The notes beneath the pieces are model-generated. The model made no database searches and was not told the origin of the DNA. It saw nothing but the letters and a program-made list of their open reading frames with translations. A stretch of DNA of 64,000 bases, taken from assembly GCF_009769385.1 (NCBI RefSeq), contig NZ_VKAB01000017.1, positions 62,001 through 126,000 on the forward strand, read 5' to 3'. The position numbers were made by a program, and so were the translations under genes. This stretch comes from Saccharothrix deserti. GTDB taxonomy: Bacteria; Actinomycetota; Actinomycetes; Mycobacteriales; Pseudonocardiaceae. Shown one piece after another: positions 7,248-48,647 of this stretch; the stretch's first letter is position 1, and every line of letters begins with the position of its first letter.

Positions 7248-7493
7248 GTGAGTTGTGATCGGAAACCGACTGTCAAGCGGCATCCCGGGTTTCGGCCGGC
7301 TCCGGTGTTCCGGACTTGTCGTCCGGTGCTGCTGTCGGCGCTCGTGCTTGCCGAGCTGTCCTTGCCTCATCCGGTGGCTTCTTCGGTCTCTTCGGAGCGG
7401 CAGGCGGGCGTTGGGCGGCGGGCGTTGGTCGAGGCGGCGCGGGAGGTCTTGGCGGTGCGTGGCGGGGAGGTGGGTTGTGAACGATCTGGTTGA
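7248..7493 (+). pseudogene. Possible decayed 3' remnant of a second ssd-like gene
   Basis: The 415 bp between ssd and tadA lack a convincing intact gene. One frame ends with LVEAAREVLAV (near 7423-7458), which strongly resembles the ssd C-terminus LAKAAREVLAA, and the DNA there is roughly 70% identical to the ssd 3' end by eye. The upstream part of the frame does not match ssd. It overlaps the tadA start by 17 bp, as an intact ssd would in a translationally coupled operon. Best reading: leftover of a duplication or rearrangement; chance similarity cannot be excluded. Confidence 0.4.
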
Positions 7494-8607
7494 GCGCGTT
7501 CGGCAGCGGCTGGCCAATGGGCGCAGCGACCTCACTTCCGCCGCTGTCGCGGCGGCGGTGCGGGGGGAGGCCGGTGGGGTGCTGGGCGACGAGGACGTCC
7601 AGCGGGCGCTCACGGTGCTGCGCCAGGAGTTCGTCGGCGCTGGGCCGCTCGAACCGCTCCTGCGCGACCCGGACACGACCGATGTCCTCGTCACCGGGCC
7701 CGATCAGGTGTGGGTCGACGGTGTCACCGGGCTGCGCCGGACGGACGTCACCTTCCCGGACGAAGCCGCTGTGCGCCGACTCGCCCAACGGCTCGCGGTG
7801 GCGGCCGGTCGGCGGCTGGACGATGCGGCGCCCTACGTCGACGGGTGGTTGCCGGGCTCGGTGCGGTTGCACGCGGTGTTGCCGCCGATCGCGCCGCTCA
7901 CCTGCCTGTCGTTGCGGGTCCTCCGCCCGGCTGTGCACGACCTGGCGACGCTGCAGGCGTGCGGCACGTTCGACGAACCGACGGGCGACCTGCTCCGGGC
8001 GATCGTGATGAGCCGCCAGGCGTTCCTGGTCGTCGGCGGCACGGGGTCGGGTAAGACGACGCTCCTCGCCGCGCTGCTGGGCTGCGTGCCGCACCACGAA
8101 CGGGTGGTGTGCGTGGAAGACGCGGGGGAGTTGGAGCCCGACCACCCGCAGGTCGTTCGGCTGTTGGCACGCGGTCCGAACGTCGAGGGCGCGGGCGAGG
8201 TGACGATGCGCGACCTGGTCCGGCAGGCGTTGCGGATGAGGCCGGATCGGATCGTGGTCGGGGAGGTTCGGGGAGCGGAAGTGTGCGAGCTGCTGTCCTC
8301 CCTCAACACCGGGCACGACGGTGGCGCGGGCACGTTGCACGCCAACTCGCCGGCGGAAGTCCCGGCACGGCTGGAGGCCTTGGCGGCGCTCGGCGGGCTT
8401 GACCGGCACGCGTTGCACAGTCAGCTCGCCGCGGCGGTGAAGGTGGTGCTGCACATGCGCCGTGCTCGCGACGGCACCCGGTACCTGGCCGAGATCGGTG
8501 TGCTGGAACGCCGGTCCGGCGAGCTGGTCGTCCGGCCGGCCTGGCGGCGTGACGATGGCCGGCAGGAAGCCGCCGCAGAGCTGGAGTCCCTGGTGGGGGC
8601 GCTGTGA
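7477..8607 (+). CDS. tadA: TadA/CpaF pilus-assembly ATPase
   Basis: 376 residues of the type II/IV secretion ATPase family. Walker A is G187-G-T-G-S-G-K-T194, the Asp box follows at 'CVEDAGEL' and Walker B/His box at 'RPDRIVVGEVRG' and 'GAGTLHANSP'. It powers assembly of Flp pilins together with TadB and TadC. The GTG start is chosen for GGGGAGG 7 nt upstream; upstream in-frame sequence is Arg/Cys-rich noise. Its stop overlaps the tadB start (GTGA). Confidence 0.93.
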   Translation: MNDLVERVRQRLANGRSDLTSAAVAAAVRGEAGGVLGDEDVQRALTVLRQEFVGAGPLEPLLRDPDTTDVLVTGPDQVWVDGVTGLRRTDVTFPDEAAVRRLAQRLAVAAGRRLDDAAPYVDGWLPGSVRLHAVLPPIAPLTCLSLRVLRPAVHDLATLQACGTFDEPTGDLLRAIVMSRQAFLVVGGTGSGKTTLLAALLGCVPHHERVVCVEDAGELEPDHPQVVRLLARGPNVEGAGEVTMRDLVRQALRMRPDRIVVGEVRGAEVCELLSSLNTGHDGGAGTLHANSPAEVPARLEALAALGGLDRHALHSQLAAAVKVVLHMRRARDGTRYLAEIGVLERRSGELVVRPAWRRDDGRQEAAAELESLVGAL

Positions 8608-10807: not shown

Positions 10808-11011
10808 CCCCTACCTGCCGCGACGAACGGTCGTCCACTGGCGGTGAGCGGACTCACATGACCGCAGATTCGCGGCTTCGCGGTGGGTGAACCGCCTCCA
10901 CACCGTTCTGCCGGCCGCCCGCACCCACCGCGTTCGCCGTGCCACATCGACCAGTTGTCGACTGGCGGTTACCAAAACCCCCGGTCATGTCGTTAGTTCA
11001 AGTGGTGGCAC

Positions 11012-46027: not shown

Positions 46028-47092
46028 CTACTTGTCGATATCGCCGACGACCACGGCGAACGACCCGAGCACCGCGGGCAGGTCCGCGACCCGGGTGCCA
46101 GGCAGCAGCGCGGACAGGGCCTGGACGTTGTTGAACGACGGCGTCCGCAGCTTCAACCGCCACGGGGTCTTCTCGCCACGCGACGCCAGGTGGACGCCCG
46201 AAGTGCCCAACGGCGCCTCGACCCACGTGTAGACCGAGCCTTCCGGCGCCTTGATCGCCTTGGGCAGCCGCAGGTTCACCGGGCCGGTCGGCAGCTGGTC
46301 CAGGCACTGGTGGGCGAGCGCGATGGACTGGCGGACCTCGTCCACCATGCAGCGGACGCGGGCGAGCGCGTCGCCCTCGGTCCGGACCACGGGCCGGACG
46401 TCCAGGTTCCGGTAGCCGGGGAGCGGGTCGTCGCGGCGCAGGTCGAAGTCCACTCCGGACGCTCGACCGATCGGCCCGGTGACGCCGAACGCGAGCGCGG
46501 CATCCCGTGCCAGCACACCGATCCCGGCCAAGCCCTCCGGCGGCTCACCGGGGTCCACAGTGGACATAACCTCGCGGACCCGGTCGGTCCAGCCGGCGGG
46601 GACGTCCTCGCGCAGGCCGCCGATCCGGTTGAACATGAAGTGGATCCGGCCGCCGGACGCCTCCTCCAGCACGGCTTGCACGGCGTCGCGGTTGCGGGCG
46701 CCGGTGAGCGGTTCGAGGAACACGAGGTGCGCCATGATCCGGTTGAGCTCGCACAGCAGGGCGCGCAGGGCTTGGGCGCGGGGCGGGACGTCCATGCCGG
46801 TCATCCGCTCGACGGCGAGGGCGACGGCCAGTTCGTTGCAGAAGGCGGCGAGCCAGTCGTGCCGGTTGGCGAGGGTGAGGACCTGCCGGTAGTCGCGGAC
46901 CTCGAACAACTTCTCCGCGCCCCGGTGCAGGTGCCCGACCAGGGGTTCGGCGGCGGTGATGACCTCGTCGTCGCGAACCGTCAGCCGCAACCGGTAGGCG
47001 CCGTGCGCCGACGGGTGCAGGGGGCCCAGATCGACCACCCGATCCACCCCGAGGTGCCGCGCCCCGGCGCCAACGCCAACGGTGATCTCCAC
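46028..47092 (-). CDS. Orphan complex I 49-kDa (NuoD)-like subunit lacking the quinone-site tyrosine
   Basis: 354 residues, about 50 shorter than Thermus Nqo4. The family signature 'HLHRGAEKLFE' (R57) and 'GPLHPSAHG' (H30) are present and the C-terminus 'VVVGDIDK' is complete. By eye-alignment to the bovine 49-kDa subunit, H30 equals the quinone-binding His59 and R57 equals Arg85, but the quinone Tyr108 (DRLDY) is Trp80 here (NRHDW). No other nuo genes are near. GTG 47092 start. The gene is on one strand with a DUF1203 gene and an NDUFAF7/MidA-type methyltransferase. Not M. tuberculosis-like; could belong to an NiFe-hydrogenase-like or partial complex. Confidence 0.8.
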   Translation of the reverse strand: MEITVGVGAGARHLGVDRVVDLGPLHPSAHGAYRLRLTVRDDEVITAAEPLVGHLHRGAEKLFEVRDYRQVLTLANRHDWLAAFCNELAVALAVERMTGMDVPPRAQALRALLCELNRIMAHLVFLEPLTGARNRDAVQAVLEEASGGRIHFMFNRIGGLREDVPAGWTDRVREVMSTVDPGEPPEGLAGIGVLARDAALAFGVTGPIGRASGVDFDLRRDDPLPGYRNLDVRPVVRTEGDALARVRCMVDEVRQSIALAHQCLDQLPTGPVNLRLPKAIKAPEGSVYTWVEAPLGTSGVHLASRGEKTPWRLKLRTPSFNNVQALSALLPGTRVADLPAVLGSFAVVVGDIDK

Positions 47093-47169
47093 CCGTTCAT
47101 GCTCGCACGCCCCCGTCCGACCCGCGGAAACCCGCCACCCGGCCGCCGGCCTCTGAATCGGGCGACGGC

Positions 47170-47616
47170 TCAATCGCGGGTGACGGCGAACAGGAAGCAG
47201 CCGTGGGAGACGCTTCGGACCTGGATTTCGGCTACCTCGGGATTGTCGAACAGCCTGGTCAGGGTTTCGGTGAGGACTTCCGGTCGGGCGATTTCGCCGT
47301 CGTGGATGCGGCCGTCGGCCGTGTAGGCGCGGAGGGTTCGGGGCGCGTGGCGGAAGGCTTCCGGGAACTCCGTCGTGCTCGCCGGGCCGTCGCACGGGTC
47401 GGCGTGGGCGAACACGGGGCCGAGTTCCTCGTACGGTCCGGTGCCCGCCGTGGGGGTGTGGCGGAAAAGGACCACCGGTTCGCCCGGCTCGGCTTTGCGC
47501 AGGCAGCAGCGCAGCGGTGCGCCGGGGGAGTCCGCGTGCAACTCGTGGTGTTCGTCCGTGCCCGCCAGCTTGCGGGCCCGCTCCAGGACGTCGGTGGGCA
47601 GCGCGTGGATCCTCAT
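47170..47616 (-). CDS. DUF1203 protein
   Basis: 148 residues. 'RIHALPTDVLERARKL', 'APLRCCLRKAEPGEPV', 'GPYEELGPVFAHADPC' and 'VRSVSHGCFLFAVTRD' are the family's conserved blocks, with paired cysteines. Function unknown. It sits between the NuoD-like and MidA-like genes, same strand. Confidence 0.85.
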   Translation of the reverse strand: MRIHALPTDVLERARKLAGTDEHHELHADSPGAPLRCCLRKAEPGEPVVLFRHTPTAGTGPYEELGPVFAHADPCDGPASTTEFPEAFRHAPRTLRAYTADGRIHDGEIARPEVLTETLTRLFDNPEVAEIQVRSVSHGCFLFAVTRD

Positions 47617-47690
47617 GCGCCTGATCGTGGTCGGGGAGGTGCGGCGCCGCCGGCGGTCTTCAGCCCTGGAGACAGGGGCCAAGGAGTTGA

Positions 47691-48647
47691 TCACGGCCGC
47701 CACGGGGGCAGCGGCGGCAGCAGGGACGACACGGGCACGCCCACGCCGTGCAGGAGCCACCCGAACGACCCCAGCCCGCCCTCCGCCCGCAACTCCGCGA
47801 TCCGAGACGCCCGCTCGGCCGACGCCAACCAATCAGCCGCACCCACCGAACCGCCCACACCGACCGAGCCTGCCGAGCCTGCCGAGCCTGCCGAGCCCAG
47901 CTTGCCCACCAGCCCCAACGCCGCCAGGGCGTCCCGTTGCGAGACCAGCACCCGATCACCCCCGGCCGCTGCCGCGCACGCGTCCAGCGCCACGTGCGCG
48001 GTCAGGTCGCAGGTCCCGTCGAACACCGGCTCCACCCGCCGACCGTCCCGGTAGGCCGCGAACGTCCCCGACGCGTACCGCCCGGCCACCCGATCGGCCA
48101 GCACGTGCCCGTAGTCCACCGCCAACGCCGCACCGCGCACCCGCGACACCGCGTCCGCCCACGCCGCATCCCTCGGCGCCCCTACCTCCGCCTTCTCCCC
48201 GTCCCCGACCGGCCACCACCGATCCAACCAAGGATGGGATAACGGGCCCGTAACCAACGGACACGGCACCGCGTCCAGCCATTCGTGCCCCACCAACAAC
48301 CCGCACACCGACGAAGGCAACGCCGAGGTCCACCGCACACCCGGCACCGTCCGGGCAGGCCCGACGTCCACCGCCGTCACCACCAACCGCGCCGCCAGCG
48401 ACCCGGACGCCAGCGACCGCACCGCCGCCGACAGCTCCCCGCCACCGGCCCCGACGTCCACGAAGTCCAGCCGCTCGGGACGTCCCAGCGCAAAATCCAC
48501 CCGATCGAGGAGCACGAGCAGCGCTTCGGCCAGCTCAGGCCCCACCAGGGGCGCGGTGCGGAAGTGGTCGGCGGGCACCGCCCCACGCGTGAAGAACCCC
48601 GACGGCCCGTACAGCGCCTCCCGCCACAGGGCTTCCGAGTCAACCAT
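47691..48647 (-). CDS. SAM-dependent methyltransferase, MidA/NDUFAF7 family
   Basis: 318 residues. N-terminal 'YGPSGFFTRGAVPADHFRTAP', SAM loop 'DFVDVGAGGGELS' and 'HEWLDAVP' (family E-x-L-D-A-x-P) identify the NDUFAF7/MidA group. Human NDUFAF7 dimethylates an arginine of NDUFS2, the NuoD homologue, which makes the nearby NuoD-like gene a natural substrate candidate. An internal Gly-Ser-Ala linker (encoded by 9-bp repeats at 47864-47897) interrupts the C-terminal half. Divergent from prsW with only 30 bp between. Confidence 0.85.
   Translation of the reverse strand: MVDSEALWREALYGPSGFFTRGAVPADHFRTAPLVGPELAEALLVLLDRVDFALGRPERLDFVDVGAGGGELSAAVRSLASGSLAARLVVTAVDVGPARTVPGVRWTSALPSSVCGLLVGHEWLDAVPCPLVTGPLSHPWLDRWWPVGDGEKAEVGAPRDAAWADAVSRVRGAALAVDYGHVLADRVAGRYASGTFAAYRDGRRVEPVFDGTCDLTAHVALDACAAAAGGDRVLVSQRDALAALGLVGKLGSAGSAGSAGSVGVGGSVGAADWLASAERASRIAELRAEGGLGSFGWLLHGVGVPVSSLLPPLPPWRP
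47864..47897. repeat. 9-bp tandem repeat inside the MidA-like gene
   Basis: CCGAGCCTG occurs three times in a row (from 47864, 47873, 47882) plus a partial fourth. It encodes a GSA repeat linker and keeps frame. Confidence 0.9.

Follow-up and report, generated by a model that had tools for sequence, protein, structure and literature searches.

A NuoD-like protein encoded beside a MidA-family methyltransferase in Saccharothrix deserti: likely D subunit of a second, split complex I-like module

The stretch of DNA analysed here (the window) comprises 64,000 nucleotides of Saccharothrix deserti contig NZ_VKAB01000017.1 and carries an orphan NuoD-like protein, hereafter D2, close to a methyltransferase of the MidA/NDUFAF7 family. 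The likely role of D2 is that of the D subunit in a second electron-transfer module, complex I-like, split between two loci and provided with its own MidA. Its gene (46028..47092, minus strand), identified by PF00346 and by sequence as encoding a relative of the complex I 49-kDa subunit, starts at a GTG codon and specifies 354 amino acids; the mechanical open reading frame extends beyond this start, to 47395. The codon for R57 in the motif HLHRGAEK, the predicted methylation site beside iron-sulphur cluster N2, is CGG at 46922..46924 (minus strand), and that for W80, which occupies the position of the quinone-site tyrosine, is TGG at 46853..46855 (minus strand). A DUF1203 protein (47170..47616, minus strand, likely ATG at 47616; PF06718, 135.8 bits) lies between D2 and MidA, an S-adenosylmethionine-dependent methyltransferase of 318 amino acids (47691..48647, minus strand; PF02636, 42.2 bits vs a cut-off of 23.3). 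The sequence bears out the three genes, the NuoD-like frame, R57 and W80 as given in a preliminary description of the locus. That description also held that no other complex I genes are near, which stands within the region scanned: Pfam analysis of the proteins at 41–53 kb found no complex I protein besides D2, and in genome-wide searches with PF00346, PF01058 and PF00146, D2 was the sole match inside the window. Its partner genes, however, sit elsewhere in the genome, as described below. The canonical NuoD and NuoB of S. deserti are both encoded on a different contig from D2, and the D2 proteins of named Saccharothrix relatives are 94% identical to that of the window.

D2 passes the PF00346 model with 197 bits, against a curated cut-off of 24, and falls below the NCBIfam cut-offs for NuoD equivalogs (TIGR01962, 286.8 vs 459.35; NF004739, 298.6 vs 360). 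Relative to the canonical NuoD of the genome (418 amino acids, a length that depends on the chosen start), segments of 41, 11 and 10 residues are missing, in line with the earlier estimate that the protein is about 50 residues short. Residues R57, W80 and H151 are each invariant in 66/66 aligned D2 rows, some rows here and in the B2 and canonical alignments below being close relatives or one genome entered twice. At the position of H151, which we take to lie near cluster N2, canonical NuoD has asparagine (20/20 rows). The HRGxEK motif was present at all 80 named D2 loci. Twenty loci with a low-scoring or MidA-less D2 (L168–L187, 16 of them without detected MidA) all have R57, W80 and H151, and the histidine at position 30 is missing in 8 of them. 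Three other identities for D2 were considered and discarded. It is not the D subunit of the canonical complex, since a canonical NuoD is present and the arginine placement of D2 is mismatched to canonical NuoB; it is not a [NiFe] hydrogenase large subunit, as 17 D2 proteins share no invariant or nearly invariant cysteine; and no PADLOC match at E 0.01 pointed to an anti-phage role.

The assignment of the methyltransferase was examined with a family profile. For this protein (METHYLTRANSFERASE), the MidA family profile matched only three PDB entries at E ≤ 0.01, namely 4f3n (COG1565), 1zkd (DUF185) and 5ztz, the last being an NDUFAF7 homologue matched at E 3e-10. All 15 members of the MidA family alignment matched PF02636, and the predicted structure of MidA had a predicted local distance difference test score (pLDDT) of 84. 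The Pfam model and the family profile alike found a single MidA-family match in the S. deserti genome.

Pairing of D2 and MidA was surveyed across 393 Actinomycetes genomes of at least 90% completeness, with D2 called at E 1e-60 and MidA at E 1e-10. D2 was found in 145 genomes and MidA in 135: both in 129, D2 only in 16, MidA only in 6 and neither in 242. The pairing of a NuoD-like protein with MidA is therefore conserved far beyond S. deserti, as the preliminary description had anticipated. Where both genes occurred they shared a contig in 127/129 genomes; all 127 pairs lay within 14.5 kb, 118 of them within 5 kb, and 99 had both genes on the same strand. Among 60 nearer genomes, 39 had both genes, one had D2 only (on a 3.3-kb contig), one had MidA only (86% complete) and 19 had neither. 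Counted by genus, MidA occurred in 15/15 genera with D2 and in 1/19 without. At the 80 named D2 loci MidA was found in 70, and 8 of the 10 misses were stretches ending at contig ends. For the 19 D2 loci of the order (a twentieth, L052, holds canonical NuoD only and was left out), MidA was in the fetched stretch in 16.

The DUF1203 protein, by contrast with MidA, did not hold its proposed place as third member of the group. It was found at only 5/19 of the order loci, all in the genus or family of the window, and at 10/80 named loci (four Saccharothrix, five Lentzea and one deposited as Nocardia sp. NRRL S-836), the latter count resting on one query sequence, which diverged copies could escape. 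This lineage-limited distribution rules out DUF1203 as a functional third member. Other genes between D2 and MidA were likewise ruled out as partners, since they differ among the four interrupted or wider loci inspected (five proteins named with Pfam): a P450, an amino acid permease, a response regulator and an ATP-binding cassette (ABC) transporter. At L051, from the window's genus, MidA (7385–8299) lies on the strand opposite to D2.

Shared position alone might account for such a pairing: D2 and MidA would both sit in an old folate/pantothenate block, and MidA would act on another protein. Many of the pairs do lie between DUF2520/panC and DUF3180/folK. In 28/127 pairs the two genes are on opposite strands, and R57 is kept in all 16 D2 genomes without detected MidA, which also speaks against a strict dependence of substrate on enzyme; of these genomes, G380 ends at a contig edge and the other 15 have a divergent D2 scoring below 285 bits. 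Against this explanation, D2 and MidA are jointly missing from 19 of the 60 nearer genomes, while the flanking DUF2520 gene persists in 18 of the 20 D2-less genomes, that is, in all 18 searched (14 strong and 4 weak matches, counted as presence in the genome and not as position beside panC). One or another of the genes named above intervenes between D2 and MidA in loci that were read, and, of the PF00346 matches in S. deserti, none besides D2 is an arginine-type NuoD on which the single MidA-family protein found there could act. We therefore consider synteny alone an unlikely explanation.

Further evidence on D2 came from genes at another locus. A second NuoB of S. deserti is encoded on contig C5 near 416.9 kb. 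It forms a cluster with NuoC2 and NuoI2 (NuoB2-NuoC2-NuoI2), after which comes an HtpX protease gene; none of the adjoining genes encodes a membrane subunit. The cluster lies on the same contig as the nearest matched canonical nuo gene, about 15 kb from it. In other families, B2-C2-I2 occurs with NuoH and further membrane subunits, and with no D gene at the locus. B2-C2-I2 would supply the B, C and I partners of a Q-module, and the four N2 cysteines are retained in 25/25 B2 rows. Across the 393 genomes, D2 and B2 were both found in 134, D2 only in 11, B2 only in 7 and neither in 241; a genome counted as having B2 when it gave at least two NuoB-type matches, or a single one at B2 level, in a table read by eye, and G042 and G436, among the 7 B2-only genomes, may have a duplicated canonical NuoB.

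Evolutionary distances gave the same association. In 22 genomes D2 distances tracked those of B2+C2+I2 (r 0.83) above those of canonical NuoD (r 0.44). The partial correlation between D2 and B2+C2+I2 was 0.80, a value equalled in 0/2000 permutations, and it was 0.85 in the 17 genomes left once four near relatives and one long branch were removed. On a tree of 38 canonical NuoD proteins the D2 trait changed at least 7 times, 6 of the changes being forced by well-supported branches; of 6 independent pairs, MidA followed D2 in an average of 5.0 and B2 in an average of 5.4. By co-occurrence and by distance, D2 goes with NuoB2, NuoC2 and NuoI2, and the 'self-contained pair' of the preliminary description is not upheld.

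The residues facing cluster N2 point to the same partner. In the available text of PMC8042128, the arginine beside N2 in Yarrowia is NDUFS2-R121, facing NDUFS7-T122, while in Thermus the D subunit has threonine and Nqo6-R83 supplies the arginine, the two side chains overlapping. The same two placements are found here. In D2 the switch position is arginine in 66/66 rows, and in B2 threonine in 25/25; in the canonical pair NuoD has threonine (20/20) and NuoB arginine (20/20), with HTGxEK in 38/38 canonical NuoD. Unlike in Thermus or Yarrowia as described in that text, a single genome here has both placements, each in a D/B pair of its own. Swapping the D or B partners would put two arginines or none at N2, which argues that D2 pairs with B2. 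The HRGxE motif in which R57 had first been noted is general to many NuoD/49-kDa proteins, and the arginine is therefore informative only by its contrast with the threonine of actinobacterial canonical NuoD. Read from sequence, this switch is the strongest residue-level sign both of D2–B2 pairing and of D2 as the target of MidA.

A MidA-family enzyme with an HRGxE arginine beside N2 has precedents. NDUFAF7 dimethylates NDUFS2 R85 in human cells (PMC3829151, as far as its available text goes), and the same mark is reported on R65 of Paracoccus denitrificans and is missing in Escherichia coli despite the arginine (PMC3750175, likewise in part). In the human and Paracoccus cases described in these texts the target is the ordinary complex I D subunit. 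Here, unlike in those systems, the ordinary NuoD has threonine, and the arginine is carried by a second D protein, encoded near the methyltransferase. The argument for R57 methylation would rest on the arginine together with the linked MidA.

The quinone site of D2 is altered, as had been proposed. The position of W80, which we take to be that of the quinone-site tyrosine of NuoD, is tryptophan in 66/66 D2 rows and tyrosine in 20/20 canonical rows; this tyrosine, the nearby acid and the PRQxD loop of NuoB are presumed to take part in quinone binding. At least 90% of D2 rows have lost a stretch of 41 residues that canonical NuoD has; in window D2 two further segments are gone, one of 11 residues at the quinone-site acid and one of 10. 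By eye, the motif of this acid is gone from most D2 rows of genomes without a second membrane arm (membrane-free), and G071 and G069 keep part of it. The PRQxD loop is lost in 17/17 B2 rows of membrane-free genomes (G149 has PREAD) and kept in 6/6 membrane-type B2 rows and in the five canonical rows shown. Two residue features were set aside: W80 is not a sign of membrane loss, as the tryptophan is also found in D2 with a membrane arm, and glutamate at the quinone-site aspartate is not a D2 feature, as the three canonical rows shown also have it.

S. deserti has one NuoH, the canonical one, and no second. In 40 chosen genomes, 11 D2 genomes had a second NuoH (329–347 bits) near B2, here called membrane type. 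The remaining D2 genomes had one strong NuoH, some with extra hits below 170 bits; exceptions were G048 (82% complete), with no NuoH, and G059, whose partial second hit of 210 bits was placed in neither type. Membrane-free D2 (18 rows from 7 families) fell on one side of a tree branch with support 84/95, and membrane-free B2C2I2 (17 rows) on one side of a branch with support 100/98.

With a single NuoH in the genome, B2-C2-D2-I2 might dock on the canonical membrane arm and convert it into a ferredoxin-dependent complex I. The distance of about 15 kb between B2C2I2 and the nearest canonical nuo gene matched would suit such an exchange of modules, as would the full membrane arm that accompanies D2 in other lineages. 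Docking on NuoH would, however, be expected to preserve both the PRQxD loop, lost from every membrane-free B2 row, and the quinone-site segment, lost from window D2, and we judge the exchange to be rather improbable. It is very improbable that D2 is what is left of a decaying second complex I and has lost any part in electron transfer: membrane subunits have been lost and the membrane-free group shows deletions and longer branches, but the median ratio of nonsynonymous to synonymous substitution rates is near 0.1 for D2 (0.105, compared with MidA 0.151, B2 0.131, C2 0.223 and DUF1203 0.278, some strains entering twice), R57, W80, H151 and the N2 cysteines are invariant, and the membrane-free D2 rows of seven families group together.

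The stretch read around B2C2I2 showed no NADH module, NuoI2 carries a 4Fe-4S dicluster domain, and a gene for the alpha subunit of a 2-oxoacid:acceptor oxidoreductase (korA type) was in the fetched stretch around NuoB2 in 11/17 and 5/9 loci, counts that carry no control for chance and with identity confirmed for two copies; such genes lie, for instance, at L058 (18742–19900) and L093 (13447–15363). For these reasons the donor of the B2-C2-D2-I2 module is probably ferredoxin. In the window's genus the module is not expected to reduce quinone in the ordinary manner, judging from the residues lost, and its acceptor would be a non-standard one.

The proposed mechanism can be put as follows. MidA would symmetrically dimethylate R57 while D2 joins B2, as NDUFAF7 does with human NDUFS2 R85. 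Reduced ferredoxin, perhaps generated by the 2-oxoacid:acceptor oxidoreductase whose gene lies close to many B2 clusters, would give electrons to the two 4Fe-4S clusters of NuoI2. From there they would travel on to N2, where B2 and D2 meet, and finally to some acceptor that is not quinone in the standard pocket. In its full form, a soluble, quinone-free, ferredoxin-fed NuoB2-C2-D2-I2 with a MidA-dimethylated arginine at N2, operating beside a complex I of opposite arginine placement in the same cell, this picture is tentative, and we would put it at somewhat under an even chance. From the preliminary interpretation it keeps the conserved pairing, the distinctive arginine and the altered quinone site, and drops the role of DUF1203 and the self-contained pair.

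Several results, besides the strand and R57 observations given above, weigh against D2 as the subunit of such a module. Genes that lie together share part of their history for that reason alone, which makes the D2–MidA neighbourhood by itself weaker evidence than that from B2. Two of the 80 named loci (L259 and L265) have full flanks and no MidA was found in them; 6 MidA genomes have no D2 match at E 1e-60, though in 3 of these the MidA matches are weak and partial. B2 was not found in 11 D2 genomes of the 393, and sign tests on the 6 independent pairs gave a median p of 0.0625 each for MidA and B2. The unmethylated arginine of E. coli means that arginine alone is no proof of methylation. The predicted D2 structure is of moderate quality (pLDDT 77) and falls below 50 at residues 54–58, R57 included. 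The grouping of membrane-free D2 is supported at 84/95 only.

One of the closest known systems is nuo2 of Streptomyces, a second nuo set in which nuoD2 is separated from the other genes (PMC8388888 and PMC3765725, in their available text). The separated D gene is shared, and the D2 family is also found at named Streptomyces loci, which suggests that this family is the published nuoD2. Streptomyces nuo2 has a second membrane arm according to these sources, whereas the window's genome has only B2, C2, I2 and D2; the available text of the two papers makes no mention of a methyltransferase or an arginine switch for nuo2. Desulfitobacterium has 11-subunit complex I-like enzymes without an NADH module (PMC11238625, in part). 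The present module resembles these as described there in that the stretch read around B2C2I2 shows no NADH module and a donor other than NADH is expected, and differs in having no membrane arm, a D gene split off and tryptophan for the quinone-site tyrosine. What is already known is Streptomyces nuoD2 as a separated gene; the remainder was not found in the open-access literature.

In mitochondria, methylation of the complex I arginine beside N2 is bound up with the assembly of a central enzyme, which leaves its purpose hard to discern. If the proposal is correct, the same chemistry would occur in a second, possibly membrane-free module, with the threonine-type complex I of the same bacteria as an internal control. 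The roles of the arginine, its methylation and MidA could then be separated from proton pumping and quinone, and the module would represent a route for the complex I Q-module back to soluble life.

Around the window locus, one flank holds folP- and folK-type genes, a mycothiol-isomerase-like gene, DUF3180 and DUF6779, and the other a PrsW-like gene, DUF2520, panC, panD and a type III pantothenate kinase gene. A Gly-Ser-Ala repeat lies within the window's MidA protein (47850–47890); it is longer in L053 and absent from more distant aligned members. The HtpX gene that follows nuoI2 lies at 10888–11904 of L058, with an M48 match in 12/17 and 3/9 B2 loci, and an assembly or quality-control role for this protease is possible.

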